A DNA stretch of 33,863 nucleotides from a virus (IMGVR_UViG_3300031951_000682:1-33863); one strand, 5' to 3'. Counted from the stretch's first letter, positions 19,352 through 30,520 are shown. Notes: generated by a model from the letters alone, not told the origin. A program made the numbers and translations.

Positions 19352-19385
19352 GTCCCGTAGGACAGTGACCCGTTCATCGTGAACG
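19352..19385 (-). promoter_or_regulatory. 5' leader hairpins of the ssDNA-binding-protein operon
   Basis: Read on the minus strand, the predicted transcript starts near 19386 and forms CGTTCA-CGA-TGAACG (19385-19371), then GTCC-TACG-GGAC (19363-19352), then GTTTAAC and AAAGGATG before the start codon. The second hairpin plus GTTTAA matches the leaders of four plus-strand promoters in this window. Confidence 0.55.
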
Positions 19386-19392
19386 TGTGAAG

Positions 19393-19412
19393 ACTATAAC
19401 ACGGAATTTGAT
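19393..19412 (-). promoter_or_regulatory. Promoter/operator copy P1 (early, leftward)
   Basis: The minus strand reads ATCAAATTCCGTGTTATAGT, a variant of the dyad-plus-extended-10 element found six more times on the plus strand; TATAGT is the -10 box and TG stands one base ahead of it. It overlaps the last codons and TAG stop of the HNH gene. It should drive the minus-strand operon starting with the ssDNA-binding protein. Confidence 0.65.
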
Positions 19413-19768
19413 TCTTCAAGAAGTTTTTTCAGACGCGATGGTGTGCGATTGGTTCCGCGACAGCGCACGTTGTCTGCATGAGAGAGCAGTCGAAGGTTGG
19501 AAATTCTGTTGTCGTCTCGGTTGCCATTGATGTGATCAACCGTCATGTTTTCGTGAATTGAGCCGTGGCAGTAAACCCACGCCAGACGATGCGCAAGGTA
19601 GGCTTTTCTGAAGATTCGTATTTGGCGGTAGCCGTTGGTGTTGAGCGATCCGAGTGGTTGGTTCATTTGCCTGCTAACGGCACGTCGTCGCCACATGAAG
19701 ATTCCCGTTTGGGAGTTGTACGCAACCTCAGCAAGGAGGTCGTCTTTCGATAGAATTGCGATAGCCAT
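19394..19768 (-). CDS. HNH homing-type endonuclease
   Basis: 124 residues from the ATG at 19768, preferred over one at 19783 because AAGAG precedes it at good spacing. Features: FMWRRRAVSRQMNQPLGSLN, NGYRQIRIFRKAYLAHRLAW, then the HNH core DHINGNRDDNRISNLRLLSH (first His around residue 81) with the following asparagines. This is the typical phage free-standing HNH endonuclease, which cleaves target DNA and spreads as a mobile gene. Its codon use is less GC-rich than that of neighbouring genes. The end of the coding region is also the promoter of the next operon, so insertion preserved or supplied the promoter. Confidence 0.85.
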   Translation of the reverse strand: MAIAILSKDDLLAEVAYNSQTGIFMWRRRAVSRQMNQPLGSLNTNGYRQIRIFRKAYLAHRLAWVYCHGSIHENMTVDHINGNRDDNRISNLRLLSHADNVRCRGTNRTPSRLKKLLEESNSVL

Positions 19769-19797
19769 TTGATGCTCTTTCATCGGGTGGTAAGAAG

Positions 19798-19836
19798 GCC
19801 CCGCACAGTTGACGCTGTCGGGGCTTTCGTCATTTT
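19798..19836 (+). terminator. Strong hairpin in the divergent control region, possible terminator
   Basis: GCCCCG (19798-19803) pairs with CGGGGC (19819-19824), and inner ACAG pairs with CTGT, leaving one bulged C. The plus strand follows with TTTCGTCATTTT, an imperfect T-rich tail. It would stop rightward antisense transcription before the promoter at 19861. On the minus strand no T-run follows. Confidence 0.4.
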
Positions 19837-19860
19837 ACGCCTAAGAACTGGCGCGCAAAA

Positions 19861-19879
19861 TCTAATCTTGTGTTAGACT
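19861..19879 (+). promoter_or_regulatory. Promoter/operator copy P2 for the Cro-like regulator
   Basis: TCTAATCTTGTGTTAGACT: dyad arms TCTAAT and GTTAGA five bases apart, with extended -10 TG-T-TAGACT (-10 at 19874-19879). The predicted transcript starts near 19886 and has a very short leader with AAAGGAGG before the ATG at 19902. Unlike five other copies it is not followed by the leader hairpin. Confidence 0.65.
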
Positions 19880-19901
19880 CTTGCGAAAGAAAGGAGGTTG
19901 C

Positions 19902-20102
19902 ATGAACCTAAAACAGTACTTCAAGGATGAGCCATATGGCGCGAAGAAGGAGATGGCCGACTACCTTGGCATCACCCAAACGTGGCTTGGGCTATTGATC
20001 AGAAAGGCGCGAAGACCATCACCTGAATTGGCAAAGAAAATTGAGAAGGCCACACAAGGCCTCGTGAGTGCAAAAGAACTGCGGCCCGATATTTTTAACT
20101 GA
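19902..20102 (+). CDS. Cro/YdaS-like helix-turn-helix regulator
   Basis: 66 residues; the ATG at 19902 follows a strong AAAGGAGG (19890-19897), so an upstream start at 19881 is rejected. Residues 14-50 (AKKEMADYLGITQTWLGLLI, RKARRPSPELAKKIEKAT) form a five-helix Cro/CI-type DNA-binding domain like YdaS/Cro proteins. It is the only clear repressor-type gene in the window, and the dyad element lies in its own promoter. It is therefore the best candidate to bind the seven dyads and shut off early genes. That link is inferred. Confidence 0.75.
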   Translation: MNLKQYFKDEPYGAKKEMADYLGITQTWLGLLIRKARRPSPELAKKIEKATQGLVSAKELRPDIFN

Positions 20103-20133
20103 CCCGACGTTGGGTTTTTAACTGGAGATCGAA

Positions 20134-20949
20134 ATGAAAAGAGTGAACCTGCATGACATCCGGATCGATGGCGGCACCCAAAGCCGTGTAGTGATCGATC
20201 AACCCACGGTGTACCACTACATCGAGTGTGCCAAAGGCGGCGACGAGTTCCCGCCCTTGGAGACAGTTTTTGATGGGGCAACGCACTGGCTGGTCGATGG
20301 TTTCCACCGCTACCACGCCTACAAGCTGATGGGCCTCAAGCAAGCCGATGTGAACTACAAGCCCGGCACGCAATCAGAGGCCCAGATCATCTCGTTTGGC
20401 GTCAACGGCAGGCACGGCAAGCCTCGCACGGTGGAGGACAAGCGCAACGCAGTCGAGATGGCCTTGGCGCACCCAGACCTCAAAGACGCCACCATGTACG
20501 AGATCGCCAAAATCTGCTGCGTGTCTCAGCCATTCGTTGCTGGCGTGAAAGACCCGGAGAAGAAGAAAAAGCAAAAAGAGGCCAAAGACAAGAGCATCAA
20601 AAAGAAGGCCGAAGAACTCCACGCTCAGGAAGCGGCAGAGACTGCTAATCCGATTAGTATCGAAAAAGCAACACATAGGGAAACCCCTGATCTAAATACT
20701 GGTGCTGGCCCAGATGAGGAGGAGTTGAGAGCCAATGAACTGGCACTGCAAGCCGACATGGACATCATGTACAAGATGCTCGAGGCTGACGATGCACTGG
20801 CTGTTGCACACGAGGAAATCAAGCGCCTGAACCTTGCCTACGCCCAACTGGACGTGCGCTTCAAGGGCCTGATGAACGAGCGCAACCAAGCCGTCAAGAT
20901 GGTCAAGGAACTGCAAAAGCAAATCGACAAGTCGAAAGCCAAAAAATGA
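20134..20949 (+). CDS. ParB-like nuclease-domain protein with coiled coil
   Basis: 271 residues with GGAG before the ATG. Residues 1-95 are a ParB/sulfiredoxin-type N-terminal domain: RIDGGTQSR, then WLVDGFHRYHAYKLMG with the G-x-H-R box at 56-59. Residues 100-140 form an HTH-like stretch (EMALAHPDLKDATMYEIAKI, CCVSQPFVAGV). A Lys/Glu-rich linker leads to a coiled coil (195-271). In phages such proteins may bind or nick DNA at specific sites and aid replication or regulation. The coding region contains a palindrome (20645-20657) that recurs at 27514-27526. It overlaps the helicase gene by ATGA. Confidence 0.75.
   Translation: MKRVNLHDIRIDGGTQSRVVIDQPTVYHYIECAKGGDEFPPLETVFDGATHWLVDGFHRYHAYKLMGLKQADVNYKPGTQSEAQIISFGVNGRHGKPRTVEDKRNAVEMALAHPDLKDATMYEIAKICCVSQPFVAGVKDPEKKKKQKEAKDKSIKKKAEELHAQEAAETANPISIEKATHRETPDLNTGAGPDEEELRANELALQADMDIMYKMLEADDALAVAHEEIKRLNLAYAQLDVRFKGLMNERNQAVKMVKELQKQIDKSKAKK
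20644..20685 (+). repeat. Composite element copy 1: CTAATC-C-GATTAG palindrome plus TAGGGAAACC
   Basis: GCTAATCCGATTAGTA (20644-20659) holds a perfect 6-base-arm palindrome, followed 16 bases later by TAGGGAAACC (20676-20685). The same pair recurs at 27513-27562 with a single base changed in the 16-mer. This copy is inside the ParB-like coding region in a locally AT-rich linker. Confidence 0.6.
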
Positions 20950-22499
20950 ACCAAACCCTAGCGCCACGTGAGCGTGATGATGGATTTCCAACACCCCGCC
21001 AATTTCAACTGACTGCCCACAATGCCCTTCGCCAAGGGTTTCGTGATGGCCACAAGAACCAGATCATCATGGCCCCCACAGGGGCTGGGAAGACATACCT
21101 TGGTCTGCGCATCTGCAACGAGGCCATCCAAAAGGGCAAGCGCGCAGTGTTCCTGTGCGACCGCACCACGCTGATCGACCAGACCTCTGAGGTGGCTGAC
21201 CGATACGGCCTGTACGACCACGGCATCATCCAAGCCAAGCACTGGCGTCGCCGCCCTGATGAACTGCTTCAGATTGCCTCTGTGCAGACCATTGGCAAGC
21301 GAGGCTTTTGGCCAAAGATGGACGTGCTCGTCGTGGACGAGGCCCACACCACCTACAAGGCGTGGACTGAGTTTGCAATGAGCACTGGCGCGGCCGTGAT
21401 CGGTCTGTCGGCCACGCCCTTCACTGTGGGGCTGGGCAAGATATTCTCGAACCTGATCAACGCCACCACGATGTACGACCTGACGCAGAACGGCGTGCTG
21501 GTGCCCATGCGCATCTTCTCGTGCTCCAAGCCCGACATGACTGGTGCTGAGACCTCTGGCGGCGAGTGGACGGACAAGGCTGCTGAGGAGCGCGAACTCA
21601 AGATCGTGGGTGACGTGGTGGCCGACTGGCAGCGTTTTGGTGACAACCGCAAGACGATTGTGTTTGGTGCCACCATCAAGCACTGCGAAGAGTTGTGCCG
21701 CCAATTCATCAACGCTGGCGTCATGGCGGCTGTGTTCACGTCGGACACCACCAAGAAGGAGCGCGAAGACCTCTTGAAGGAGTACAGGAAGCCCAACAGC
21801 CACCTGAAGGTCTTGATCAGTGTCGAGGCCTTGGCCAAGGGTTTTGACGTGCCTGACGTGGGCTGTATCTGCGATGCGCGCCCTTTGCGCAAGTCACTGT
21901 CCACTGCCATCCAGATGTGGGGCCGGGGCCTGCGGTCGTCGCTCGAGACCGGAAAGCAGGACTGCCACCTGCTGGACTTCAGCGGCAACATCATTCGCTT
22001 CTTCGAGGACTTCAACGACATCTACTTCAACGGGCTGGATTCGCTTGACTCTGGCGACAAGCTGGACAAGAAGATTCGCACGCAAGAGGAATTCGAGCCC
22101 AAGGGGTGCCCACGCTGCGGCTACACGCCGTTTCACAAGCGGTGCATGGCCTGTGGCTTTGAGAAGGTGTCGTCGCAAGTGAGCGAGGCCCTGCCGGGTC
22201 ACATGAAGGAAATCTTCATCGGTGAGGGCAAGAACAAGAAGAAGCTGGCCGACAACGCCGAGCACTTGTGGCATCAAGTGGTGGCGTATGCCAAGCACCA
22301 TAGTGCGCCCGAGAAGCAGTCAGCGCGTGCATGGCACCTGTTCAAGCAGATCACTGGCCAAGAGACACAATGGGCATTCTCGAAAGCGCCTGCGGTCGAG
22401 ATCACCAAGAACGTGTACAACAAGATTCAACAGATGAACATCGCCTACAAAAAGGGCATGGCCAGCGGCTGGAAGAGTGCAGGAGGGCACAAAGCATGA
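20946..22499 (+). CDS. SF2 DNA/RNA helicase (DEAH box) with zinc finger
   Basis: 517 residues. ATPase motifs in order: APTGAGKT (Walker A, 43-50), VVDEAH (129-134), GLSATPF (motif III, from 153), VFGATIKHCEE (motif IV), SVEALAKGFDVPDVG (motif V) and QMWGRGLR (motif VI, 323-330). After the two RecA-like domains comes a Cys4 zinc-binding site (Cys388, 391, 400, 403) and a basic C-terminal domain. The layout resembles RadD/UvsW-type repair helicases. It probably unwinds replication or recombination intermediates; whether it is the replicative helicase is unclear, since no hexameric helicase is seen. Translation is coupled to both neighbours. Confidence 0.88.
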   Translation: MNQTLAPRERDDGFPTPRQFQLTAHNALRQGFRDGHKNQIIMAPTGAGKTYLGLRICNEAIQKGKRAVFLCDRTTLIDQTSEVADRYGLYDHGIIQAKHWRRRPDELLQIASVQTIGKRGFWPKMDVLVVDEAHTTYKAWTEFAMSTGAAVIGLSATPFTVGLGKIFSNLINATTMYDLTQNGVLVPMRIFSCSKPDMTGAETSGGEWTDKAAEERELKIVGDVVADWQRFGDNRKTIVFGATIKHCEELCRQFINAGVMAAVFTSDTTKKEREDLLKEYRKPNSHLKVLISVEALAKGFDVPDVGCICDARPLRKSLSTAIQMWGRGLRSSLETGKQDCHLLDFSGNIIRFFEDFNDIYFNGLDSLDSGDKLDKKIRTQEEFEPKGCPRCGYTPFHKRCMACGFEKVSSQVSEALPGHMKEIFIGEGKNKKKLADNAEHLWHQVVAYAKHHSAPEKQSARAWHLFKQITGQETQWAFSKAPAVEITKNVYNKIQQMNIAYKKGMASGWKSAGGHKA

Positions 22500-23365
22500 C
22501 TTTCATTGACTTCGCACGGGCACACGGCGTGTCCATTGACCCCAACCGCCTGTATGCCTCCGACAAGATCAAGCGCTGCGGCACTGTCGAGCGCCCGAAC
22601 TCTGGCAACGGTGCTTATTTCTGGGATGGCCAGCGCGGATGGGTCATGGACTGGTCAGGAGAGGCCAGAGTGGTCTGGTACGAAGACCCGCATGCCAAGC
22701 CTTGGACAGACGAAGAAAAGCGCGCATGGGCCGCAAAAAGGGCCTCAGCGGCCACTGAGCAGGAGAAGAAGTACCAGAACGCCGCCTTCCAAGCCGACGT
22801 GACCCTGCGCAGCGCCAAGTACGACCACCACCCCTACCTCGAGATCAAGGGCTTCAAGGAGACCCGTGGGCTGGTGCTGGACGACAAGCTGCTGATCCCG
22901 ATGCGCAACGTCTCCAACAACAAATTGCAGGGCTACCAGTCGATCCGCTGGGACATGCAAGAGCGCAAGTACGAGAAGAAGATGCTGCACGGCATGCGCG
23001 CCAAGAATGCGGTGCTGTACCTTGGGGCGCGTGATGCTGAGGAGTGCTGGCTTGTGGAGGGCTTTGCCACCGGGCTGTCTGTGCGGCACGCCCTGCGCAG
23101 TGTGGGCATCCCGGCATCGGTGGTGATTTGCTTCAGCGCCAGCAACATGGTTCAAGTGGCCGACCAAATCAAGGGCAAGCGGTTCATCTTTGCAGACAAC
23201 GACGAGAGCAAGACGGGCGAGAAGTCAGCAATTGCGACAGGCCTGCCGTGGACGATGGCCGACCAAGTTGGCTACGACGCAAACGACCTGCATTTGAAGG
23301 ACAGCTTGTTTGCTGTGGTGGGCAAAATGATGGAGGTTCGACAGAGGGAAATGGTATACTTCTGA
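22496..23365 (+). CDS. Toprim-domain primase-like protein
   Basis: 289 residues from the ATG at 22496 overlapping the helicase stop (ATGA); an upstream longer frame is rejected. The Toprim motifs are CWLVEGFATGLS (Glu188) and RFIFADNDES (Asp234 and Asp236), which bind the metals used in RNA-primer synthesis. An N-terminal domain (about 1-70) with aromatic residues (GAYFWDGQRGWVMDWSG) replaces the usual zinc finger; no CxxC pair is seen. It resembles phage primases of the Toprim_4/DnaG type. With the helicase upstream it likely primes phage replication by the host polymerase. Confidence 0.8.
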   Translation: MTFIDFARAHGVSIDPNRLYASDKIKRCGTVERPNSGNGAYFWDGQRGWVMDWSGEARVVWYEDPHAKPWTDEEKRAWAAKRASAATEQEKKYQNAAFQADVTLRSAKYDHHPYLEIKGFKETRGLVLDDKLLIPMRNVSNNKLQGYQSIRWDMQERKYEKKMLHGMRAKNAVLYLGARDAEECWLVEGFATGLSVRHALRSVGIPASVVICFSASNMVQVADQIKGKRFIFADNDESKTGEKSAIATGLPWTMADQVGYDANDLHLKDSLFAVVGKMMEVRQREMVYF

Positions 23366-23404
23366 CCTTCGAAAAGTCGTGCTGATGGACTGAAAACACC
23401 AGCG

Positions 23405-23470
23405 CCAACACACATGAGCATTGTCCTCTGGGGTTTCCCGGAGGCCCGGAACAGTGTTCAGTTGTGTTGG
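23405..23470 (+). ncRNA. Structured element A: three-way junction downstream of the primase gene
   Basis: CCAACACA (23405-23412) pairs perfectly with TGTGTTGG (23463-23470) and encloses two hairpins: CCTCTGGG/CCCGGAGG (23425-23432 with 23437-23444, loop GTTT, one G-U pair) and GAAC/GTTC (23449-23452 with 23456-23459). It may be the 3' UTR of the primase mRNA or part of a larger RNA. No T-run follows and no protein is encoded. Confidence 0.45.
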
Positions 23471-23543
23471 TGTGGTTTAGAAGTTTGTAAAACGACTGCG
23501 AATTGACGCAGCAGACGCTGGACTCACAATCAGCCACCAACAC

Positions 23544-23574
23544 TTGACAAAGGTTTCCCGGTTTACCTTAAAAT
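23544..23574 (+). promoter_or_regulatory. Sigma-70-like promoter of the small RNA
   Basis: Consensus TTGACA at 23544-23549 and TAAAAT at 23569-23574, 19 bases apart (18 if TTAAAA is used). GGTTTCCC, a motif repeated in this region, lies in the spacer. The start would be near 23581. Confidence 0.55.
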
Positions 23575-23580
23575 CGGGGC

Positions 23581-23702
23581 ACTGCTGGAATTGGAAAGCC
23601 AGCATGAAGAATCGCTAAGTCAGACTCCGGCCCCGTAAGGGGTTGTTGGTGCCCACAAGGTGCCAGCCTTTCCAAACGGGGTCTGTCTTAGCGATTTTTT
23701 TT
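23581..23702 (+). ncRNA. Structured element B: about 120-nt small RNA with long closing stem and terminator
   Basis: After a hairpin TGCTGG/CCAGCA (23583-23588 with 23599-23604), bases 23610-23629 pair with 23677-23696: 19 of 20 positions, including one G-U pair, with a single U-U mismatch. Enclosed are CCCC-GTAA-GGGG (23631-23642, GNRA tetraloop) and a nine-pair hairpin (23645-23653 with 23659-23667, loop CACAA). The closing stem is followed by eight T (23695-23702), so it doubles as an intrinsic terminator. The promoter upstream makes a discrete transcript likely. I do not recognise the family. Confidence 0.65.
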
Positions 23703-23773
23703 GGCCCAGCCACTTCCCGTACTCCGCACGAAAGTAGGGGCCGCAAGTGGGGCCGCTCGGAAGGAAACCGCGA

Positions 23774-24046
23774 CACGGTATGCAACCGTGGACTTGATGA
23801 TGGTGAAAGCAAGGTACTTAGGCACGGTGAGAGGGCTTGCCCGTTAGGCTGTACCAGCGCCCGGAGCCGCTTAGGGCCACCATCATCAAGTCCATGGGCT
23901 AGGGGGCAGTTCCCGAATAATCCGTGCGGCTGGTCGAATCATCAAGCCGAGGGGTAGACGGTACTCAATCCGTCACATGATGATCCTGTTCAACAGGGGT
24001 GAAGCACCTTCCCTCTCTACCTCACGTCTGGGGTAGGGGGGTCTTT
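23774..24046 (+). ncRNA. Structured element C: about 270-nt region with perfect 16-bp helix
   Basis: Bases 23790-23805 pair perfectly with 23878-23893 (GGACTTGATGATGGTG with its complement). Inside are GGTAC/GTACC (23813-23817 with 23851-23855) and GGG-CTTG-CCC (23833-23842). Around it lie CACGGT/ACCGTG (23774-23790), CGGCTGGT with ATCA-A-GCCG (23927-23949), GACGG/CCGTC (23957-23974), CCTGT/ACAGG (23985-23997) and a ten-pair stem (24012-24021 with 24032-24041) ending in TCTTT. There is no credible reading frame with a ribosome binding site. The density of helices suggests a functional RNA, perhaps of the large ornate phage RNA type; no promoter of its own is obvious. Confidence 0.5.
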
Positions 24047-24100
24047 GGGTGAAAGGATTGATTGGGGTCAATGAGGGGGCAAATTCCGGCCTCGCTCGAA

Positions 24101-24119
24101 TCAAACTTCATGTTAGACT
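24101..24119 (+). promoter_or_regulatory. Promoter/operator copy P3
   Basis: TCAAACTTCATGTTAGACT: the left dyad arm has one mismatch (TCAAAC), the right arm GTTAGA is intact, and -10 TAGACT (24114-24119) has the extended TG. It lies 25 bases ahead of the oxygenase gene. No leader hairpin follows. Confidence 0.6.
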
Positions 24120-24143
24120 GGCGCAATTTAACGGAGAGAGAAA

Positions 24144-24779
24144 ATGGATCAACTCGAAGAGATGCATTACTTTGCAACGCCTGTCTACGTGGTGCATAAG
24201 CCTGAATTCATTGACGCTGTGCGCACGGTGTCCAGCCGCTACGAAGAGGTCTCTCGTGAGCGCAAAAAGAACCCTGACTACGTCAACCTGATGACTGCCA
24301 GCTACGCGCATGAGCAGGAGTTGCAAGACTTCTCTCAGTACGTCTCGCAGACTGCTTGGAACATCCTTGCGTCGCAGGGCTACAACATGGATCAGTTGGT
24401 GACCTACTTCACCGAGATGTGGACGCAAGAGCACAACCACCTGTCCTCCATGGAGACCCATGTCCACGGGGCTGGATGCCAGATCAGCGCGTTCTATTTC
24501 ATCGACGTGCCCGAAAACGCCTGCAAGCTGGTGGTGCATGATCCCCGGCCCGGCAAAGTGATCATTAACCTGCCCGAGAAGGACGCCAGCCAGATCACCT
24601 TGGGGTCGCACCAGATCGTGTTCACACCCAAGCCCGGCGCGCTGATTTTGCTCAATGCATGGGTGCCCCACTCCTTCACCAAAAACATGGGCAATGAGTC
24701 CATGCGATTCGTTCACATGAACCTGTCGGTGGCTGTCGGTGATGAGCCCAAAGAGGACAACTCTGTGGAGGTGATATGA
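24144..24779 (+). CDS. 2-oxoglutarate/Fe(II)-dependent oxygenase
   Basis: 211 residues with GGAGAGAG before the ATG. The core matches the 2OG-FeII_Oxy_5 family: THVHGAGCQISAFYFIDVPE (candidate iron ligands His106/His108), VVHDPRP (from 130), PKPGALILLNAWVPHSF (His176 as distal ligand) and MRFVHMNLSV (Arg188 for 2-oxoglutarate). Such enzymes hydroxylate proteins, nucleic acids or small molecules; the substrate here is unknown. Many tailed phages of aquatic hosts carry one. It follows promoter P3 and overlaps the next gene by ATGA. Confidence 0.75.
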   Translation: MDQLEEMHYFATPVYVVHKPEFIDAVRTVSSRYEEVSRERKKNPDYVNLMTASYAHEQELQDFSQYVSQTAWNILASQGYNMDQLVTYFTEMWTQEHNHLSSMETHVHGAGCQISAFYFIDVPENACKLVVHDPRPGKVIINLPEKDASQITLGSHQIVFTPKPGALILLNAWVPHSFTKNMGNESMRFVHMNLSVAVGDEPKEDNSVEVI

Positions 24780-25003
24780 AGTTCCGCATCCGATTCAACA
24801 AGTCTGCTGGCCAAGAGGGGCGCGGCACCAAGGATCACGTGTGGCGCGTGTTCGCAGGCAAGAAGGAATATCTGGCCAAGAACGTCATCCTGATCGTGCC
24901 CAGCCGCAGCGAAAAAGACTGCTGTAGCAACGACTGGAACATGGTGTGCGAAGGCGAGATGCACATCGACCGGGAAACCTCGACAATAAAAATCTTGCCA
25001 TAG
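24776..25003 (+). CDS. Small protein, unknown function
   Basis: 75 residues, overlapping the oxygenase stop by ATGA. It looks like a compact beta-rich protein (MKFRIRFNKSAGQEGRGTKD, VWRVFAGKKEYLAKNVILIV, GEMHIDRETSTIKIL) with a CC pair and a further Cys that could bind metal. Co-translation with the oxygenase suggests a shared process, but no homology is recognised. Confidence 0.6.
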   Translation: MKFRIRFNKSAGQEGRGTKDHVWRVFAGKKEYLAKNVILIVPSRSEKDCCSNDWNMVCEGEMHIDRETSTIKILP

Positions 25004-25006
25004 CAA

Positions 25007-25025
25007 TCTAATTCCGTGTTAGACT
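25007..25025 (+). promoter_or_regulatory. Promoter/operator copy P4
   Basis: TCTAATTCCGTGTTAGACT: intact dyad (TCTAAT, GTTAGA, five bases apart) and extended -10 TAGACT (25020-25025). A weak -35 TTGCCA lies 19 bases ahead of the -10. The predicted start is at about 25032, at the edge of the leader hairpin. Confidence 0.7.
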
Positions 25026-25032
25026 CTCCTTA

Positions 25033-25046
25033 CCACGACGTTGTGG
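25033..25046 (+). promoter_or_regulatory. Leader hairpin of P4
   Basis: CCAC-GACGTT-GTGG at the predicted 5' end of the mRNA, followed by GATAAC, AAGGAG and the ATG at 25064. Its stem differs from the P5-P7 hairpins by paired (compensatory) changes. Confidence 0.55.
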
Positions 25047-25063
25047 GATAACAAGGAGATTCA

Positions 25064-25453
25064 ATGACCACGTACACACACTGGCACGTCCTGATGGCCA
25101 GCCCGACTGAGCCCATCCCAGTCAAAAAGCGCCGTTACTACATTGCCCTCATGCGTGTGGCACTGGAGAACTGCAAGACCAAGATCACCGAAAAGGATCG
25201 CACGGTCTTGTCCAGCGCCGTTGACCTGCTCAACACCCTGTGCGACATGAAGCTGATCGAGGACAACGAGAAGGCCTTGGAAGACGCCATGGTTGCCTTG
25301 ATGCAGGACAACCTCAACGACATCGAGGTGCGCATGTTTGAGGGCGTCCTCGAGGACTACGAGATGGTCATGGAGAACCTGCCCGAGCGCACCATGATCG
25401 CCGCCCACCGCGCAACCGAGAAGCGCATTGGAAAAAGGAAGGTGGCAGCATGA
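25064..25453 (+). CDS. Early protein, helical, unknown function
   Basis: 129 residues with AAGGAG before the start, first gene after P4. Predicted all-helical with many charged residues (YYIALMRVALENCKTKITEK, RTVLSSAVDLLNTLCDMKLI, FEGVLEDYEMVMENLPE) and a basic C-terminus. No catalytic or DNA-binding motif is evident. It overlaps the next gene by ATGA. Confidence 0.6.
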   Translation: MTTYTHWHVLMASPTEPIPVKKRRYYIALMRVALENCKTKITEKDRTVLSSAVDLLNTLCDMKLIEDNEKALEDAMVALMQDNLNDIEVRMFEGVLEDYEMVMENLPERTMIAAHRATEKRIGKRKVAA

Positions 25454-25659
25454 AAGCAACAAACAAACTGCGCTTTGTTGAGCGAAGCCAGCCGGATTAT
25501 CCCGGCTCCAATACGGGCCGAATTGTTCGCATCCTTCAGCAGTGGTGGGAGGACAGCTATGTGACGCTTTCGGTTCATGTCACAGACAAGGATGGCAATG
25601 TGCTGCCGTCACCCAGCCGTGGCGAATGGCGCGATGTGCCAGTGGAGGTGGAGTCATGA
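25450..25659 (+). CDS. Small early protein, unknown function
   Basis: 69 residues, coupled to both neighbours by ATGA overlaps. Beta-rich with NTGRIVRILQQWWEDSYVTL and a VTDKDGNVLPSPSRGEW stretch. It resembles a small SH3-like barrel in pattern only; no function is known. Confidence 0.55.
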   Translation: MKATNKLRFVERSQPDYPGSNTGRIVRILQQWWEDSYVTLSVHVTDKDGNVLPSPSRGEWRDVPVEVES

Positions 25660-25934
25660 CCGAAGAGCAACTCGACAAGGCCATCGCCACACACGAGCGC
25701 AGGCGCAAGGTCTTCATGGAAGAAGGCCTGTGCGAGAAGGAGGCGTTCGACCTAGCAGAGCGCATGTGGAACCGCGACGCTGACCCCTTTGATGATCGAC
25801 GTGTGTGCTTTGAATGCCGCCACCACGTTGCAAGGCTTTGCACCAAGATCACGGATCGCTACGGCAAGCCCACCACGCAAGTCAGATTCGTTTTGCAACG
25901 CTGTGACCACTTTGATTTGAAAGGCAAAAAATGA
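25656..25934 (+). CDS. Small protein with possible Cys-type zinc site
   Basis: 92 residues from the ATG at 25656, overlapping the previous stop. A helical N-terminal half is followed by VCFECRHHVARLC and, near the end, RCDHF; the four cysteines (CxxC, then C, then C) with histidines could hold a zinc ion. Small proteins with this ending are common in phages and plasmid regions of proteobacteria. Function not known. Confidence 0.6.
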   Translation: MTEEQLDKAIATHERRRKVFMEEGLCEKEAFDLAERMWNRDADPFDDRRVCFECRHHVARLCTKITDRYGKPTTQVRFVLQRCDHFDLKGKK

Positions 25935-26125
25935 TCAAGACTCCACGACAAAAAACATTCTGGGCGATATTCCTTCTGCCCTTTGTGTTCTCAGCGGCCA
26001 TCCAGTTCTTGCCAGTATGGCTGTCCGTGCCCATCGCATTCCTGTGCGGTTCATTCTGGATCGGTGCCGTCTGTGTGCTGGCCAAACTTCCACCGAAAGA
26101 AAAAAATGAGAACACTAGGTATTGA
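25931..26125 (+). CDS. Small two-pass membrane protein
   Basis: 64 residues: basic N-terminus (IKTPRQK), two hydrophobic segments at about 9-26 and 31-53, then a charged tail (KLPPKEKNENTRY). It overlaps the previous gene by ATGA and the resolvase gene by 20 bases. A role in the host membrane early in infection is possible, but unknown. Confidence 0.6.
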   Translation: MIKTPRQKTFWAIFLLPFVFSAAIQFLPVWLSVPIAFLCGSFWIGAVCVLAKLPPKEKNENTRY

Positions 26126-26561
26126 TCCGGGCGCAACAGGCGCATTGGTGCTGATCGAGGACGGCCAGCCCATCGAATGGACTGCCATGCCCACCACCAA
26201 GATTGGCACGGCCACTCGCGTGAATGCAGCAGCCCTGACCGACTTCATTGCATCGTGCTGCTGTGACCACGTCTACGTTGAGCAGGTGCATGCCATGCCG
26301 GGCCAAGGCGTGACATCGATGTTCAACTTTGGCCACTCATGCGGCACGGTGATGGGTGTGGTGGGTGCCTTAGGTCTCCCCTTCACCATGGTCACCCCGC
26401 AGGCTTGGAAGAAGTCTATGGGCCTGATCGGCACCGACAAGGACGCCGCACGAGCACGCGCCATCCAACTGTGGCCAAAGTGGCGTGACCTCGACAAGAA
26501 GGGCAAGGGCCAAGCACTGGCAGACGCCGCGCTGATTGCGAGGTATGGCCATGGCAATTGA
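26106..26561 (+). CDS. RuvC-like Holliday-junction resolvase
   Basis: 151 residues from the ATG at 26106. The RNase H-fold acidic residues are visible: Asp7 in GIDPGATGA, Glu59 in VYVEQVHAMPG and a C-terminal Asp140 in LADAALIARYG, preceded by KGKGQ. The central TSMFNFGHSCGTVMGVV is the usual RuvC helix. It should cut branched recombination and replication intermediates before packaging. The start overlaps the preceding membrane-protein gene, and the ribosome binding site is weak (GAAAGAAAAA), so coupling may be needed. Confidence 0.85.
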   Translation: MRTLGIDPGATGALVLIEDGQPIEWTAMPTTKIGTATRVNAAALTDFIASCCCDHVYVEQVHAMPGQGVTSMFNFGHSCGTVMGVVGALGLPFTMVTPQAWKKSMGLIGTDKDAARARAIQLWPKWRDLDKKGKGQALADAALIARYGHGN

Positions 26562-26775
26562 ACTTGCAGACGACACGCCGTTCTTTGACGTGAGGGGCAC
26601 CACCATCACGCATCGCAACCCCAAGACGATCACCGACGGCATCATGGTGTGCCAAGAGGCGTTCATCGAGATCGACACCAGCAAGATGAGCCAGACGTTC
26701 ATCCATCTGCTCATGCATCACATGGGCGAGGGGCACATCAAGGTGCATATCGCAGAGAAGAAGGAGACACCATGA
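26551..26775 (+). CDS. Small early protein, unknown function
   Basis: 74 residues; the ATG at 26551 is preferred over that at 26545 because GAGG (26540-26543) is then well spaced. It overlaps the resolvase end by 11 bases. Contains FFDVRGTTITHRNPKTITDG and a His-rich C-terminal part (HLLMHHMGEGHIKVH). Function unknown. Confidence 0.55.
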   Translation: MAIELADDTPFFDVRGTTITHRNPKTITDGIMVCQEAFIEIDTSKMSQTFIHLLMHHMGEGHIKVHIAEKKETP

Positions 26776-27113
26776 ACCAGAAGGACATCAACGACGCCGT
26801 GGACTACCTGTACACCCACGGCCGCAAGTACGCCGAGGCCAAGGCCCACCGGGTCTACCTCGAGGAGTACCGCAAAAGCCAGAAGGCCATGCTCATGAAG
26901 AAGGCCTTGTCCGATGGGCGCGCTAAATCGGCCGTGGTGGCCGAGATCGAGGCCTACGCAGACTCAGCCTACATCGAGGTGCTGAAGGGCTTAGAAGCGG
27001 CCACAGAGGCCGAGGAGACCCTGCGCTGGGGGTTGGTGTCAGCACAGGCCAGAATCGACGTGTGGCGCTCTCAGGAGGCCAGCAACAGGGCATTCGACAA
27101 GGCGGTCACATGA
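26772..27113 (+). CDS. Conserved helical phage protein
   Basis: 113 residues with AAGGAG before the ATG at 26772 and an ATGA overlap upstream. Entirely helical, coiled-coil-like: NDAVDYLYTHGRKYAEAKAH, YLEEYRKSQKAMLMKKALS, then EEETLRWGLVSAQARIDVWR near the end (the LRW-x-LV-x-AQARI-x-VWR motif recurs in many phages). It is often next to recombination genes, but no activity is known to me. Confidence 0.65.
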   Translation: MNQKDINDAVDYLYTHGRKYAEAKAHRVYLEEYRKSQKAMLMKKALSDGRAKSAVVAEIEAYADSAYIEVLKGLEAATEAEETLRWGLVSAQARIDVWRSQEASNRAFDKAVT

Positions 27114-27286
27114 AGATCAGAAAACATCGAAAGCGCATGCAGGCCAAGGTGCGCCATGGCAATTCATTTAGTTGGGCGCTCGAAAAAATGATGAAAAGAA
27201 TCTGCGCCTCTTTCGTAAGTTTCGACCAAGCCTTTAAAGATGCATACGCAAAGGCAAGAAATGAACGGCAGCTACAACAAGAATGA
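27110..27286 (+). CDS. Small basic protein, 58 aa
   Basis: The ATG at 27110 overlaps the previous stop (ATGA) and continues to 27286. Starts MKIRKHRKRMQAKVRHGNSF, very basic, then a helical SWALEKMMKRICASF segment. It could bind nucleic acid. It overlaps the next gene by 26 bases. Confidence 0.5.
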   Translation: MKIRKHRKRMQAKVRHGNSFSWALEKMMKRICASFVSFDQAFKDAYAKARNERQLQQE

Positions 27287-27533
27287 GCGCGCATGGGTGC
27301 AACTCGTGAAGGAGCAGCCCTGCTCTGTCTGCGAGGCACCCGGCCCCTCTGACGCCCACCACATCAAGCAGGGCCTGCACTACACCTGTGTGGCCCTGTG
27401 CAAGTCCTGCCATCAGGGCAGCAAGATGGGCTGGCACGGCGAGAAGGCTGCATGGCGCATCGCCAAGATGGAAGAGATCGACGCCCTCAACGTCACTCTG
27501 GCCAACATATACGCTAATCAGATTAGTAGGTAG
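27261..27533 (+). CDS. HNH nuclease of the Ref-like type
   Basis: 90 residues from the ATG at 27261. The motif order is CSVCEAPGPSDAHHI (CxxC then HH), then CKSCHQGSKMGWHG (CxxCH and GWHG). This is the pattern of P1 Ref-like and related phage HNH proteins, where the two CxxC hold a zinc ion and the HH/H residues are catalytic. Ref cuts DNA with RecA's help; whether this one does is not known. Its last codons contain the second copy of the CTAATC-N-GATTAG palindrome. Confidence 0.7.
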   Translation: MNGSYNKNERAWVQLVKEQPCSVCEAPGPSDAHHIKQGLHYTCVALCKSCHQGSKMGWHGEKAAWRIAKMEEIDALNVTLANIYANQISR

Positions 27534-27562
27534 TTGGTTTCCAAAACCATACTAGGGAAACC
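27513..27562 (+). repeat. Composite element copy 2: CTAATC-A-GATTAG palindrome plus TAGGGAAACC
   Basis: GCTAATCAGATTAGTA (27513-27528) differs in one base from the copy at 20644. TAGGGAAACC follows at 27553-27562, and GGTTTCC (27536-27542) forms an inverted repeat with GGAAACC (27556-27562). The element runs from the end of the HNH gene into the space ahead of P5. Confidence 0.6.
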
Positions 27563-27600
27563 ACTTAGAAAAATAATTGCAAAAAGTCTTTTCAACAGAC

Positions 27601-27619
27601 TCTAACTTCGTGTTAGAAT
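27601..27619 (+). promoter_or_regulatory. Promoter/operator copy P5
   Basis: TCTAACTTCGTGTTAGAAT: perfect dyad TCTAAC/GTTAGA and extended -10 TG-T-TAGAAT (27614-27619). No good -35 box; the extended -10 probably suffices. The start should be near 27626, at the leader hairpin. Confidence 0.7.
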
Positions 27620-27626
27620 TCTTTCA

Positions 27627-27641
27627 CCGCAACGTTAGCGG
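27627..27641 (+). promoter_or_regulatory. Leader hairpin of P5
   Basis: CCGC-AACGTTA-GCGG, followed by GTTTAACC, AAAGGA and the ATG at 27662. The loop begins with AAC as in P6 and P7, and the stem differs by a compensatory T-A to C-G change. Confidence 0.55.
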
Positions 27642-27661
27642 GTTTAACCAAAGGAAATGAA

Positions 27662-27955
27662 ATGACTGCAATCACCACCACCCCAGCTTCTGCCGACGAA
27701 CTGGGCACCCTCTTGGCTCAGATCGCCACACTGACCAAGCAGGCAGACGCAATCAAAGACGCCATGAAAGACGCCGCCAGCAAGAGCGACACCAAGGTCT
27801 TCGAAGGCGCACTCTTCAAGGCCACCTACTGCGAAGCCAACCGCACCGTGGTTGACTACAAAAAGATGATCGCCGACATCGGCGTGTCCGAGAGCATCAT
27901 TGCTCAGTACACCACCACCACCGCTGTGTTCAGCATCAAGACCACCGCACGTTAA
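27662..27955 (+). CDS. Early phage protein, unknown function
   Basis: 97 residues, first gene after P5, with AAAGGA upstream. A Thr/Ala-rich N-terminus, a helix (LGTLLAQIATLTKQADAIKD) and a beta part (FEGALFKATYCEANRTVVDY) can be seen. Proteins of this pattern (KAT-x-x-E-x-NR-x-VDYK) are common in phage early regions and often highly expressed; no role is known to me. A stable hairpin follows at 27963-27978. Confidence 0.6.
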   Translation: MTAITTTPASADELGTLLAQIATLTKQADAIKDAMKDAASKSDTKVFEGALFKATYCEANRTVVDYKKMIADIGVSESIIAQYTTTTAVFSIKTTAR

Positions 27956-27962
27956 TTCAACC

Positions 27963-27978
27963 GGGGGCTCCGGCCCCC
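27963..27978 (+). other. GC-rich intergenic hairpin
   Basis: GGGGGC-TCCG-GCCCCC, six pairs with a UNCG-type tetraloop, between two early genes. No T-run follows, so it is more likely an mRNA-stability or processing element than a terminator. Confidence 0.5.
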
Positions 27979-27992
27979 ATAGGAGAACCACC

Positions 27993-28370
27993 ATGAAACC
28001 CATGACACAGCGTGAAAAAGAATTGACCAGCAAGAACATCTTGGCCGCATGCCGGGACATCAACAAGCTGAACAAGCGTGGCTACGACTTCTTGAACCGT
28101 TGCAATGGCTTCATTGCTCATTACGACATCAACGGTTTCAAGCACTACTACGCCGGGCGCAACTTGCAGCAGGACATCGAGCGCAACGCCAAGGCAAACC
28201 AGTGGCACAACTTCCGCAAAGGCGAGGAGCACGCCGACTTCTATCACGCCAAGCGTGACTGCTACAACATGATCCTTGGTGGCTTCGTGGCGCGCCAAGC
28301 ATTGGACGAGAAATTCGACAACCCCGTGCAGTTTTTGCGGGATCACTTCACCATCATCCGCATCAGCTAA
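27993..28370 (+). CDS. Early protein, unknown function
   Basis: 125 residues from the ATG at 27993 with AGGAG upstream. Mostly helical, rich in Asn, His, Tyr and Arg (AACRDINKLNKRGYDFLNRC, HYDINGFKHYYAGRNLQQDI, HNFRKGEEHADFYHAKRDC). The aromatic/basic mix would suit nucleic-acid or nucleotide binding, but no known motif is present. Confidence 0.55.
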   Translation: MKPMTQREKELTSKNILAACRDINKLNKRGYDFLNRCNGFIAHYDINGFKHYYAGRNLQQDIERNAKANQWHNFRKGEEHADFYHAKRDCYNMILGGFVARQALDEKFDNPVQFLRDHFTIIRIS

Positions 28371-28380
28371 GGAGCACACC

Positions 28381-28662
28381 ATGAAGATCAAACTCACAGC
28401 GCACGTCCATCACGTCCAATACCCTTGGGAAGACCAAGGCATGTACCAACTCTGGTTTGCCAAGCTGGACGACGACGACACGCGCACCTACGTCGGTGAG
28501 CAGGAAGTCGAAGTTGAAGTGCCCGACAACTACGACCCACGCGCCAAACAAATCGCCGCGCTGGAAAAGCAAAAGCAAAAGGTCATGGCCGATTACCAAA
28601 AGATGGTCAATGACATCAACGAGAAGATCAGCAAACTGCAAGCCATCGAGTACACACCCTAA
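28381..28662 (+). CDS. Early protein with C-terminal coiled coil
   Basis: 93 residues from the ATG at 28381 with AAGGAG upstream. Residues 1-50 are beta-rich (MKIKLTAHVHHVQYPWEDQG, TYVGEQEVEVEVPDNYD) and 55-88 form a coiled coil (ALEKQKQKVMADYQKMVNDI). Short beta-plus-coil proteins of this kind are common in phages; no function is known. Confidence 0.6.
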   Translation: MKIKLTAHVHHVQYPWEDQGMYQLWFAKLDDDDTRTYVGEQEVEVEVPDNYDPRAKQIAALEKQKQKVMADYQKMVNDINEKISKLQAIEYTP

Positions 28663-28672
28663 GGAGAGCACC

Positions 28673-28876
28673 ATGAACAATCACATCTGGACACCCGCAG
28701 GCACCGACATCACCATCCGCTGGCGCAAGGCTGGCTGGGTGCCGCCCAGTGAACAACCGGAGTACCAAGCCAAGTGGAAGTTCTGGCAAGAGTTGCCCAT
28801 GCGCAAGCTGAACGAAAATGAAAAGGCTGTGTACGAAGACACATTGCGTCGTAACAAAGTAGCGAGGATCAAGTGA
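28673..28876 (+). CDS. Small early protein, 67 aa
   Basis: Starts at 28673 with AAGGAGAG upstream; Trp-rich and basic (HIWTPAGTDITIRWRKAGWV, EYQAKWKFWQELP), then a helical end. Its stop overlaps the GTG start of the next gene (GTGA). The pattern of a W-TP-x-GTD-x-x-x-RW-R/K start is recurrent in phages of this kind, without known role. Confidence 0.6.
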   Translation: MNNHIWTPAGTDITIRWRKAGWVPPSEQPEYQAKWKFWQELPMRKLNENEKAVYEDTLRRNKVARIK

Positions 28877-29541
28877 CCCCGTTGATCAGTAAGGCGGTCA
28901 AGTTTGCGCCTGAGCCTGAGACTGCTTTGTGGTTTGACGTTGGACAAATGGAAACCGTCCAAGCCATGAAGGTGCCAGCCGATTTTCTGATGCACTTGCC
29001 TTCAAAGCGCACGGGTATTGCTGGACTTGACACTGGCGGCAAGGACTTTGCAATTTGGCTATCACAGGGCGATGGATCGGTTACCGTTGGCGGCTGCTCG
29101 ATGTGGCATGGTGGCAAGTATTTCCCGCCCTATGCATACATCGCAACCGAGGACGGGTTCAAGGTTTATCGCAAGGGCGCAGAAATCACGCTGGAGGATG
29201 TTAAGCCCGTGCATCGCATGGTGCTTGCCGTGTTGACCAAGTTGGCCGCAAAGTCAGAGGGATACAGGGCAACACCCCAACGCACGTTCATCAATCAAAA
29301 ACGTCAATCCAAAGGCAAACCAGCGTTGACATTTGACTGGCACACCGTGGTAATCGAACCGCCAAAAGAAAAGAACGATCCACAAGGGGGAACACATGCA
29401 AGCCCACGCCGCCATCAAGTTCGAGGACACTGGCGCACATATAAGTCCGGCAAGCGTGGGTGGGTGAATGAGTGCTGGAAAGGTGACGCAAGCAAAGGCG
29501 TCGTGTTCAAAGATTACAAACTGAAAGAAAACAATGACTGA
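28873..29541 (+). CDS. Early protein with a basic Trp-rich C-terminal motif
   Basis: 222 residues starting at GTG 28873 (GAGG upstream, GTGA overlap). The N-terminal 130 residues are a mixed alpha/beta domain (ALWFDVGQMETVQAMKVPAD, GGKDFAIWLSQGDGSVTVGG). The C-terminus HWRTYKSGKRGWVNECWKGD, ASKGVVFKDYKL, is a motif I recognise from many phage proteins (HWR-x-x-KSGK-x-x-WV...GDASKGVV-x-KDY), possibly for nucleic-acid binding. Function unassigned. Confidence 0.6.
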   Translation: MTPLISKAVKFAPEPETALWFDVGQMETVQAMKVPADFLMHLPSKRTGIAGLDTGGKDFAIWLSQGDGSVTVGGCSMWHGGKYFPPYAYIATEDGFKVYRKGAEITLEDVKPVHRMVLAVLTKLAAKSEGYRATPQRTFINQKRQSKGKPALTFDWHTVVIEPPKEKNDPQGGTHASPRRHQVRGHWRTYKSGKRGWVNECWKGDASKGVVFKDYKLKENND

Positions 29542-29821
29542 GAAAAAAGAACTGAGCCAATTGGCCCGTCAACTGCTGGGCAACTCCAATGCCGTGGAGT
29601 TCTACACCCAGCAGGAATTCGACGCAGCCCTTGCCGTCGCCAAGGCCGAGATCATGACTGTGGCCATCCAGACCAGCAAGCAAGTCATCATGATCGAGCG
29701 GCAGGCCTGCGCAGACCTCGTCAGAGACCTCGCAGGCGAGGAGGATGAGGGTGAGGTAGCCACCGCCCTCAAAAACGCCGCTGAGGCCATCCTGAACCGC
29801 ATACCAAGCCAAAGGCAATGA
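29534..29821 (+). CDS. Early helical protein, unknown function
   Basis: 95 residues overlapping the previous gene by eight bases. All-helical, acidic (LSQLARQLLGNSNAVEFYTQ, EFDAALAVAKAEIMTVAIQT, LAGEEDEGEVATALKNAAEA). No recognised domain. The next gene starts one base after its stop. Confidence 0.55.
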   Translation: MTEKKELSQLARQLLGNSNAVEFYTQQEFDAALAVAKAEIMTVAIQTSKQVIMIERQACADLVRDLAGEEDEGEVATALKNAAEAILNRIPSQRQ

Positions 29822-29822
29822 C

Positions 29823-30152
29823 ATGAACGACAGACTCATCGAGGTGATACAGAAGATCACCGACTCCATGGAGATTCGCACCAACGAGACCATGAAGGAC
29901 GTGATCGATCAGTACGGCCCCGAGGTGGCCATCAACGTGCTGATCAACGTGTCCACCAGCATGCTGGCCAAGGGCCTGATCATGACTGACCCGGACAGCA
30001 GGGATCACCTTGCAGGCGTGGCCGTCAGGATCACCCAGATGAAGGTGGAAGAGGGGCATGCAGCCGTCGAGACCCTGATGGCCATCGGCAAGGCCATGAT
30101 CAGCAGGGGAGGTGCTCAGACGTGCCAGCCCATGCCCCCCAAAAAGCATTAG
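29823..30152 (+). CDS. Early helical protein, unknown function
   Basis: 109 residues, starting one base after the previous stop; helical with IEVIQKITDSMEIRTNETMK and VINVLINVSTSMLAKGLIM-like stretches and a Pro/Lys-rich end. The last gene before the P6 control region. No function is recognised. Confidence 0.55.
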   Translation: MNDRLIEVIQKITDSMEIRTNETMKDVIDQYGPEVAINVLINVSTSMLAKGLIMTDPDSRDHLAGVAVRITQMKVEEGHAAVETLMAIGKAMISRGGAQTCQPMPPKKH

Positions 30153-30176
30153 GGTTTGTCCTAATCAAAATAGTTG
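30153..30176 (+). other. ATTAGG/CCTAAT inverted repeat ahead of P6
   Basis: The bases just after the 30152 stop read TAGGGTTTGTCCTAAT preceded by AT, giving an inverted repeat ATTAGG-N6-CCTAAT. A T-run is absent. It might be a weak terminator or a protein-binding site for P6; only the symmetry is seen. Confidence 0.35.
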
Positions 30177-30207
30177 TTGACGACAGAATCTAACTTCATG
30201 TTAGAAT
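30177..30207 (+). promoter_or_regulatory. Promoter/operator copy P6, with -35 box
   Basis: TTGACG (30177-30182) and -10 TAGAAT (30202-30207), 19 bases apart, with extended TG. The dyad TCTAAC-TTCAT-GTTAGA (30189-30205) is perfect and covers the spacer and part of the -10, so a bound repressor would block polymerase. Confidence 0.75.
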
Positions 30208-30215
30208 CCTAACCA

Positions 30216-30229
30216 CTGCAACACAGCAG
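30216..30229 (+). promoter_or_regulatory. Leader hairpin of P6
   Basis: CTGC-AACACA-GCAG two bases after the predicted transcription start, then GTTTATTTAGGAG and the ATG at 30249. It has the same stem as P7 with a different loop end. Confidence 0.55.
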
Positions 30230-30248
30230 GTTTATTTAGGAGATTTAA

Positions 30249-30455
30249 ATGCGCGTTACCCACCTCAACAAAGGCCCAGCAGGCATGGCATCAATGACAG
30301 CATGCGGTCGCAACATTTTGCGCACACCCATTTCAGTCAACTGGAATGAATTCAAGGATGAGCCCACCCAATACCGTTGCGTCAAGTGTGCGGCTAGCAA
30401 ACAATTTGAAGTTAACGCTCGTATGGATGAGCGCAAATCATTGTCCATAGCTTAA
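30249..30455 (+). CDS. Small protein with CxxC motif
   Basis: 68 residues with TTAGGAG upstream, sole gene between P6 and P7. MASMTACGR near residue 16 and YRCVKCAASKQF near 43 give Cys, then CxxC, which can bind zinc; this MTACGR...C-x-x-C pattern is common in small phage proteins. The role is unknown. Having its own promoter and leader suggests strong or separate expression. Confidence 0.6.
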   Translation: MRVTHLNKGPAGMASMTACGRNILRTPISVNWNEFKDEPTQYRCVKCAASKQFEVNARMDERKSLSIA

Positions 30456-30462
30456 AAAGAAA

Positions 30463-30476
30463 GGGGCTTCGGCCCC
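30463..30476 (+). terminator. GGGGC-TTCG-GCCCC hairpin, terminator-like
   Basis: Five G-C pairs with a UUCG tetraloop eight bases after a stop codon and just ahead of P7. The usual T-run is missing (ACAATC follows), so it may slow polymerase or protect the 3' end. Confidence 0.45.
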
Positions 30477-30480
30477 ACAA

Positions 30481-30499
30481 TCTAATTCTGTGTTAGAAT
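30481..30499 (+). promoter_or_regulatory. Promoter/operator copy P7
   Basis: TCTAATTCTGTGTTAGAAT with dyad arms intact and extended -10 TAGAAT (30494-30499). No -35 box (the hairpin at 30463-30476 lies there). Confidence 0.7.
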
Positions 30500-30506
30500 C
30501 TCATTA

Positions 30507-30520
30507 CTGCAACATCGCAG
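30507..30520 (+). promoter_or_regulatory. Leader hairpin of P7
   Basis: CTGC-AACATC-GCAG at the predicted 5' end, then GTTTATAAAAG and the ATG at 30540. Confidence 0.55.

Follow-up and report, generated by a model that had tools for sequence, protein, structure and literature searches.

The question raised by positions 19393-30499 of the virus record IMGVR_UViG_3300031951_000682 is why one promoter-like sequence with internal symmetry recurs there seven times, on both strands. The record is a fragment of a freshwater phage, and we analyzed it over its full 33.9 kb (33,863 nucleotides; hereafter, the window). The repeated sequence, TCTAAY-N5-GTTAGA, is a dyad that overlaps an extended -10 element, and a sequence-only reading had proposed that a repressor operator is built into the promoter, so that one protein, a helix-turn-helix (HTH) protein of 66 residues, could control all early operons together. 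Based on a comparison with ~60 related phages, we suggest that the seven sites very probably form the regulon of one small Cro/YdaS-type repressor, the product of the gene at 19902-20102, with leader hairpins on five of the transcripts.

Seven candidate operator-promoters are present in the window

The seven 19-bp sites are all present at the places reported:

19393..19411, minus strand: operator-promoter 1, TCAAATTCCGTGTTATAGT, both arms imperfect, extended -10 element TGTTATAGT; leftward, ahead of the gene at 18678-19331
19861..19879, plus strand: operator-promoter 2, TCTAATCTTGTGTTAGACT, which directly precedes the HTH gene; without a leader hairpin
24101..24119, plus strand: operator-promoter 3, TCAAACTTCATGTTAGACT, ahead of the gene for a 2-oxoglutarate (2OG)-Fe(II) oxygenase at 24144-24779; without a leader hairpin
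25007..25025, plus strand: operator-promoter 4, TCTAATTCCGTGTTAGACT, ahead of the open reading frame (ORF) at 25064-25453
27601..27619, plus strand: operator-promoter 5, TCTAACTTCGTGTTAGAAT, a perfect dyad, ahead of the ORF at 27662-27955
30189..30207, plus strand: operator-promoter 6, TCTAACTTCATGTTAGAAT, a perfect dyad that has TTGACG at a spacing of 19 bp and precedes the ORF at 30249-30455
30481..30499, plus strand: operator-promoter 7, TCTAATTCTGTGTTAGAAT, ahead of the ORF at 30540-30830

These copies exceed what is expected by chance. Allowing at most one mismatch, the dyad TCTAAYN5GTTAGA has 12 matches in the window (six places, each on both strands) compared to 0.08 expected from dinucleotide shuffles, in which the largest number was 2, and TGTTAGAMT has six matches compared to 0.15 expected. 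The union pattern TNWAAYNNNNTGTTAKAVT matches exactly the seven sites and nothing in 100 shuffles; it was composed after inspection of these sites, and the dyad with at most one mismatch is the independent measure. With three mismatches, the dyad alone gives 20 matches in the window compared to 15.9 expected, which is not significant, and the signal thus resides in the close copies. We therefore confirm the seven promoter/dyad sites. Two details differ in how they fared: the site at 24101 has a single mismatch in one arm (TCAAAC), in agreement with the sequence-only reading, while the site at 19393, for which one imperfect arm and TGTTAGA(A/C)T had been given, has one mismatch in each arm and the -10 hexamer TATAGT.

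A plausible start codon follows all seven sites at a distance of 23-62 bp; on the plus strand, the six start codons lie 23-43 bp past the site ends (HTH gene, 19902; oxygenase gene, 24144; ORFs, 25064, 27662, 30249, and 30540), and the leftward gene starts at 19331. The position just ahead of genes is thus borne out, while calling these genes early reflects their content, i.e. a ParB-like protein, a helicase, and a primase.

The HTH protein is a member of the Cro/YdaS family

The proposed regulator is encoded just after operator-promoter 2:

19902..20102, plus strand: 66-residue Cro/YdaS-family HTH protein, with putative recognition helix at residues 26-33 and candidate specificity residue G30

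The protein matches Pfam YdaS PF15943 (8.6e-11; 41.9 bits with a cut-off of 30) and phrog_35 "transcriptional repressor" (1.4e-12). In an AlphaFold2 model (predicted local distance difference test score, pLDDT, 94), helices span residues 3-8, 14-22, 26-33, 41-50, and 57-60; the nearest solved structure is the N-terminal domain of CP-933P YdaS (PDB 8co2; template modeling score 0.87) followed by Xfaso 1 Cro (3bd1). CP-933P YdaS is also the top match by sequence profile (E 4.6e-11, 39% identity). By sequence profile and predicted fold, the 66-residue protein is, therefore, a YdaS/Cro-family regulator. Helix 26-33 would be the second helix of the HTH, which would place residue 30 within the reading helix. 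Operator-like dyads lie in the promoter of the HTH gene itself (19861, plus strand) and in the divergent promoter (19393, minus strand).

Residue 30 of the HTH protein changes together with base 2 of the operators

A search with the HTH protein yielded 59 IMG/VR loci, and further searches brought the set to 118 non-redundant sequences consisting of the HTH gene plus upstream DNA. A motif search in related genomes, a check proposed in the sequence-only reading, showed that the dyads recur ahead of genes: almost all loci in which the HTH protein is at least 76% identical to that of the window have 1-6 dyad promoters at distances of up to ~10 kb from the HTH gene, and related viral contigs share the cassette, mostly positioned before a start codon. 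An exact-motif scan that was independent of the HTH protein gave 43 stretches, most with the same cassette. Loci in which the HTH protein is at most 68% identical have almost no dyad promoters by the original pattern, and searching the divergent loci de novo gave no convincing dyad because the half-site there has changed from TCTAA to TTTAA, as seen in the regions upstream of the HTH gene.

The operators vary at base 2 of the left half-site, and this variation follows residue 30 of the HTH protein. At the leftward site beside the HTH gene, identified with a pattern that leaves half-site positions 1-3 free, base 2 is C in phages with Gly30, T in phages with Ser30 (with the exception of L046), and A in phages with Phe30. 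Because this site is trivially linked to the HTH gene, we also used distal promoters, which lie more than 1.5 kb from the HTH gene and were chosen by leader hairpin and ribosome-binding site and not by base 2. Among these, base 2 is C in 73/76 promoters of Gly30 phages, while promoters of Ser30 phages have T in 24 cases out of 30, G in five, and C in one. Because relatedness could mimic such co-change, the same statistic was calculated for every column of the helicase, the ParB-like protein, and the primase in 49 phages. Residue 30 carries 0.755 bits of information on base 2 of a possible 0.863, compared to 0.483 for the next HTH column and 0.468 for the best of 1,077 columns in the neighboring proteins; it is the best predictor of base 2, above 1,142 other columns in the HTH protein and its three neighbors. 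On a tree of the helicase, the trait switches several times, including in the close pairs L019/L272 and L025/L250, and independent pairs were concordant in 3.9 out of 4 with none opposed. We regard the co-change as strong evidence, on comparative grounds, for recognition of these dyads by the HTH protein. Binding of the protein to an unrelated sequence would have contradicted the proposal; in the comparative form of this check, residue 30 co-changes with base 2 of operators several kb away.

Several observations weigh against this interpretation. L046 has Ser30 and yet TCAAAT at its leftward site, several Ser30 or Phe30 phages have TGTAAT or AGTAAT at one distal site, and the distal promoters of Ala30 phages have a mixed base 2. 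The independent-pair test is underpowered (p 0.125, too few switches). Because the loci were mostly retrieved through HTH similarity, the co-occurrence of dyad and HTH protein alone weighs little. Moreover, 12 exact-motif records have no match to the HTH protein, and in a second search that covered ten of these 12 and had no positive control, nine also lacked the neighboring ParB-like gene. Three motif matches look like chance (L089, L093, and L100, the last being among the ten), and there may be a genuine phage that has the operators but lacks this regulator.

Proposed mechanism and alternative explanations

Host RNA polymerase would start transcription from the extended -10 element (TGnTAGAMT or TGnTATAGT) with assistance from a weak -35 element; among the 125 non-redundant sites selected by the dyad alone, 83 have at least four matches to the -35 hexamer compared to ~32 expected. 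The 17-bp dyad extends over both spacer and -10 element, from about -25 to -9 with its center near -17, and the -10 hexamer occupies site positions 14-19. Because of this overlap, a bound protein dimer and polymerase would be mutually exclusive at each site; the half-sites are 11 bp apart, which is approximately one helical turn and corresponds to the spacing for a Cro dimer. The rightward transcript starts with the HTH gene, whose promoter contains an operator. As it accumulates, the protein would shut off its own transcript and the divergent leftward one, along with five more rightward promoters at distances of up to 10.6 kb. The operator ahead of the HTH gene together with the shared divergent operators suggests negative feedback and a coordinated turn-off of replication-type genes. 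The two divergent promoters abut or overlap in most relatives, suggesting that one or two operators would govern both directions. We infer repression rather than activation because the operator overlaps the -10 box and because of the experiments on YdaS; dimer binding, timing, and the function of the hairpin are likewise part of what we infer. An operator within the promoter and a single HTH protein for all sites, as the sequence-only reading had it, are thus supported by the YdaS/Cro identity, the recurring dyads, and the co-change, while repression is the probable mode of action.

We considered whether the dyad could simply be a class of strong promoter, with an incidental symmetry that is read by no phage repressor. 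The coincidence of the right arm with the extended -10 element and the imperfect symmetry of the arms, in which position 6 is paired in 36% and position 2 in 70% of sites, would fit this explanation. However, the left arm TCTAAY is conserved although it lies at about -25 to -20, beyond known sigma-70 elements, its base 2 is predicted by residue 30 better than by any other of the tested columns, and the third base of the distal -10 boxes in Gly30 phages is mostly a G (58/76), which is non-consensus and mirrors the C of the left arm, making a promoter-only explanation improbable. Alternatively, the HTH protein might act as a MerR-like activator at a dyad between the -35 and -10 elements. In 44 of the 83 sites with at least four -35 matches, the -35-like hexamer is at 18-19 bp spacing, as in promoters that need DNA untwisting; but MerR-type dyads lie strictly between the two elements while this dyad covers the -10 element itself, and the protein belongs to the Cro/YdaS family rather than the MerR family, its own promoter carries a site, and YdaS represses (PMC8630535). 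We reject MerR-type activation, which we consider highly improbable, based on the -10 overlap and the family of the regulator. Some other phage or host protein could also bind the dyad, and the product of the ParB-like gene, which adjoins the HTH gene, is an example because ParB-like proteins can bind dyads. With the best ParB-like column at 0.42 bits on base 2 compared to the 0.755 bits of HTH residue 30, we reject the ParB-like protein as the binder and give very little credence to another binder in general. We therefore favor repression by the Cro/YdaS-type protein.

A hairpin is located at the predicted transcript start

In five of the seven transcripts of the window, a hairpin of 4-6 bp lies approximately one nucleotide from the predicted 5' end:

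19352..19385, minus strand: leftward leader with two hairpins, CGTTCA-CGA-TGAACG (19385-19371) where the transcript is predicted to start, and GTCC-TACG-GGAC (19363-19352) after it
25033..25046, plus strand: 5'-terminal leader hairpin CCACG-ACGT-TGTGG
27627..27641, plus strand: 5'-terminal leader hairpin CCGC-AACGTTA-GCGG, then GTTTAA
30216..30229, plus strand: 5'-terminal leader hairpin CTGC-AACACA-GCAG, then GTTTAT
30507..30520, plus strand: 5'-terminal leader hairpin CTGC-AACATC-GCAG, then GTTTAT

This element is new, an addition to what the sequence-only reading had observed. A hairpin with a stem of at least 4 bp starts at site positions 25-29 in 84 of the 125 sites, compared to 5.9 expected and no more than 12 in any shuffle; at most other offsets from the site, hairpins of this kind are rare. 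The stem starts at site position 27 in 90 out of 132 hairpins selected for pairing; the transcript start predicted from the -10 element is at position 26. The stems are diverse, including CTGC/GCAG, CCGC/GCGG, CCAC/GTGG, CTACC/GGTAG, CGGTC/GACCG, and CGTTCA/TGAACG, and because this list was selected for pairing only its variety is informative. For the leftward leader, stems differ in relatives with pairing kept (CGGTCA/TGACCG and CGATCA/TGATCG). The sites that lack a hairpin are mostly the promoters of the HTH and 2OG-oxygenase genes, which argues against the hairpin being a by-product of the promoter sequence. A scan of the whole window against Rfam gave only sub-threshold noise, and the leader hairpin is, therefore, not a listed family.

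The hairpin could instead be bound by an RNA-binding regulator of the phage or serve as a put-like antitermination element; the loop starts (AAC/AAT) and the following GGTTTA are conserved too, and the HK022 put RNA is a known element of early transcripts. This is a possibility that we take seriously but consider unlikely: the letters of the stem vary with pairing kept, the hairpin is missing at two of the seven promoters, and put elements are much larger than a hairpin of 4-6 bp. The position of the hairpin at about +2 also leaves hardly any unpaired 5' nucleotides, while RppH and RNase E depend on a single-stranded 5' end (PMC3997798). For this reason, mRNA protection is the simplest interpretation; the 5'-terminal hairpin would protect the mRNA from 5'-end-dependent decay, and we consider stabilization of the mRNA its most likely function.

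Neighboring genes and the junction between the divergent promoters

The remaining genes of the region are:

18678..19331, minus strand: 217-residue phage protein, phrog_862 (function not assigned), with operator-promoter 1 ahead
19394..19783, minus strand: HNH endonuclease gene (HNH_3, 4.4e-18), between the two divergent operator-promoters
20134..20949, plus strand: ParB-like protein (phrog_1033, 1.6e-13), directly after the HTH gene
20946..22499, plus strand: superfamily-2 helicase (ResIII and Helicase_C), in one operon with the HTH and ParB-like genes
22496..23365, plus strand: primase-like protein (Toprim), in one operon with the helicase

The 3' end of the HNH endonuclease gene overlaps the leftward operator. 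In most relatives, this gene is not at the junction (uninterrupted in L004, L005, L006, and L029), and TCTAATTCCGTGTTATAGT is present at the junction of operator-promoter 1 in L004 and L005. L003 has the HNH gene arranged as in the window, and its sequence upstream of the HTH gene is identical to that of the window.

Related phages and additional RNA elements

The only close GenBank phage record is MW202545 (Manatee Spring, 57 kb, circular). Acidovorax phage AP1 has a named Burkholderiales host, but its similarity is confined to the helicase/primase, and a literature search on this phage returned nothing. Two close HTH relatives are within contigs of Betaproteobacteria/Burkholderiales metagenome-assembled genomes, suggesting the host group, and the hosts of these freshwater phages are probably Burkholderiales. 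Some of the records compared are fragments. Among 12 large relatives, one of them the complete genome MW202545, none had a match to the integrase family PF00589, while 14/14 control genomes were positive. A partial search of the relatives did not find a lambda-like lysogeny partner. An HTH_3 scan found only small HTH proteins in most relatives, with frames of 249, 162, and 146 residues in G022, G020, and G016, respectively; the status of the regulator as a lone Cro is, therefore, provisional. The record of L014 contains an int-alpA RNA match (L014:16343-16410) and also encodes the 249-residue HTH protein (G022:C1:7475-7615, minus strand), a candidate CI-type repressor for this one member. In a divergent subgroup (HTH protein with WMA), TGTAAC-N5-GTT(A/T)GA followed by TATAAT lies upstream of the HTH gene in L171-L174, L179, L181, L184, and L055; here, the dyad may lie upstream of the -10 element rather than overlapping it.

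Separate from the leader hairpin, the relatives but not the window contain a small element that resembles an RNA, GGGG-GAAAGCGGATGC-[stem-loop]-GACGCAGCGAGTA-CCCC, in which the internal loops hardly vary. Copies are at L009:9897-9986 (+), L014:9906-9986 (+), L025:9909-9985 (+), L040:9898-9986 (+), L055:10129-10201 (-), and at least 20 more loci, and the element occurs in at least 120 stretches of viral contigs. Among 78 copies retrieved with a pattern for the loops alone, base pairs of the outer stem change between G-C, C-G, and T-A and remain paired. In about a dozen relatives, the element is located after the promoter and before the HTH start, and several other copies follow an ORF ending in ...LPF-stop, as in single-stranded DNA-binding proteins. 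It had no match in Rfam 15, and no paper was found by sequence; it is possibly an undescribed class of phage RNA. In L025 (13635-13752) and L010 (13893-14010), Rfam RF02932 "Betaproteobacteria-1" RNA matches with 107 and 103 bits, respectively, ~150-180 bp before the oxygenase promoter, indicating that these phages carry this RNA family. In the window, the intergenic stretch 23700-24045 (plus strand) before the 2OG-oxygenase promoter folds at -151 kcal/mol compared to -130 kcal/mol in shuffles (z -3.8), with the long stem TGGACTTGATGATGG/CCATCATCAAGTCCA.

Comparison with known systems

The closest counterpart is YdaS of CP-933P, a cryptic prophage of E. coli O157:H7 (PDB 8co2, 8c7k), which shares the protein family and fold and is likewise a small HTH regulator with palindromic protected sites that overlap promoters including its own. 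It is a Cro analogue that represses, and its DNase I footprints overlap PRM and PR (PMC8630535). CP-933P differs in having an immunity region with a CI-like PaaR2 and a CII-like YdaT and sites clustered at OR/PL (PMC8630535), while the window has single operators at seven dispersed promoters, and 12 large relatives had no integrase match. Similarly, lambda Cro at OR/OL is encoded by the first rightward early gene facing a leftward transcript, with operators overlapping promoters and presumed negative feedback, but it uses two clustered triple operators instead of single 17-bp operators spread over 11 kb and fused to each -10 element.

One repressor with many dispersed sites is also found in Cluster A mycobacteriophages; their stoperators are asymmetric and act on elongation (PMC9283540), as opposed to the symmetric sites on promoters here. 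We reject stoperators as an explanation because each of the seven sites is a dyad that lies on a promoter in front of a gene, rather than an asymmetric site within a transcription unit and oriented with transcription. The integrase-less genomes of Cluster O mycobacteriophages (Corndog) also contain a repeated 17-bp dyad, but its ~34 copies are mostly not at promoters, with a third within genes, and have no known binder (PMC4351075). Because the copies here are at promoters and a binder is indicated by co-change, we also reject Cluster O-like repeats. Finally, stabilizing stem-loops at or near the mRNA 5' end are present in E. coli ompA and papA mRNA and in the T4 gene 32 leader; here, by contrast, a short hairpin with a variable stem recurs on most transcripts of one promoter class within a single phage.

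Implications

Our verdict is that the window very probably contains a Cro/YdaS-type regulon of new layout, with a natural specificity switch and a 5'-terminal hairpin. This yields a concrete and testable proposal for the regulatory circuit of freshwater phages that are widespread as a group but have hardly been studied. The group also represents a natural experiment in which a repressor and its dispersed operators shift together, with repeated switches among Gly, Ser, and Phe at residue 30 and, along with these, among C, T, A or G at base 2. Because a repressor with many dispersed targets should resist change, these phages offer a route to study how such a barrier is crossed. The recurrent 5'-terminal hairpin suggests that transcription control and mRNA protection are paired in one cassette. 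We tentatively speculate, as a possibility rather than a likelihood, that integrase-lacking phages use a portable early cassette, composed of Cro operator, extended -10 element, and protective +2 hairpin, at promoters across the genome under a lone Cro-type protein, and that single-residue changes at position 30 repeatedly accompanied a genome-wide rewriting of the operators, with incompatible specificity classes as a result. If this is true, whether two phages in a co-infected cell silence each other could depend on these classes.

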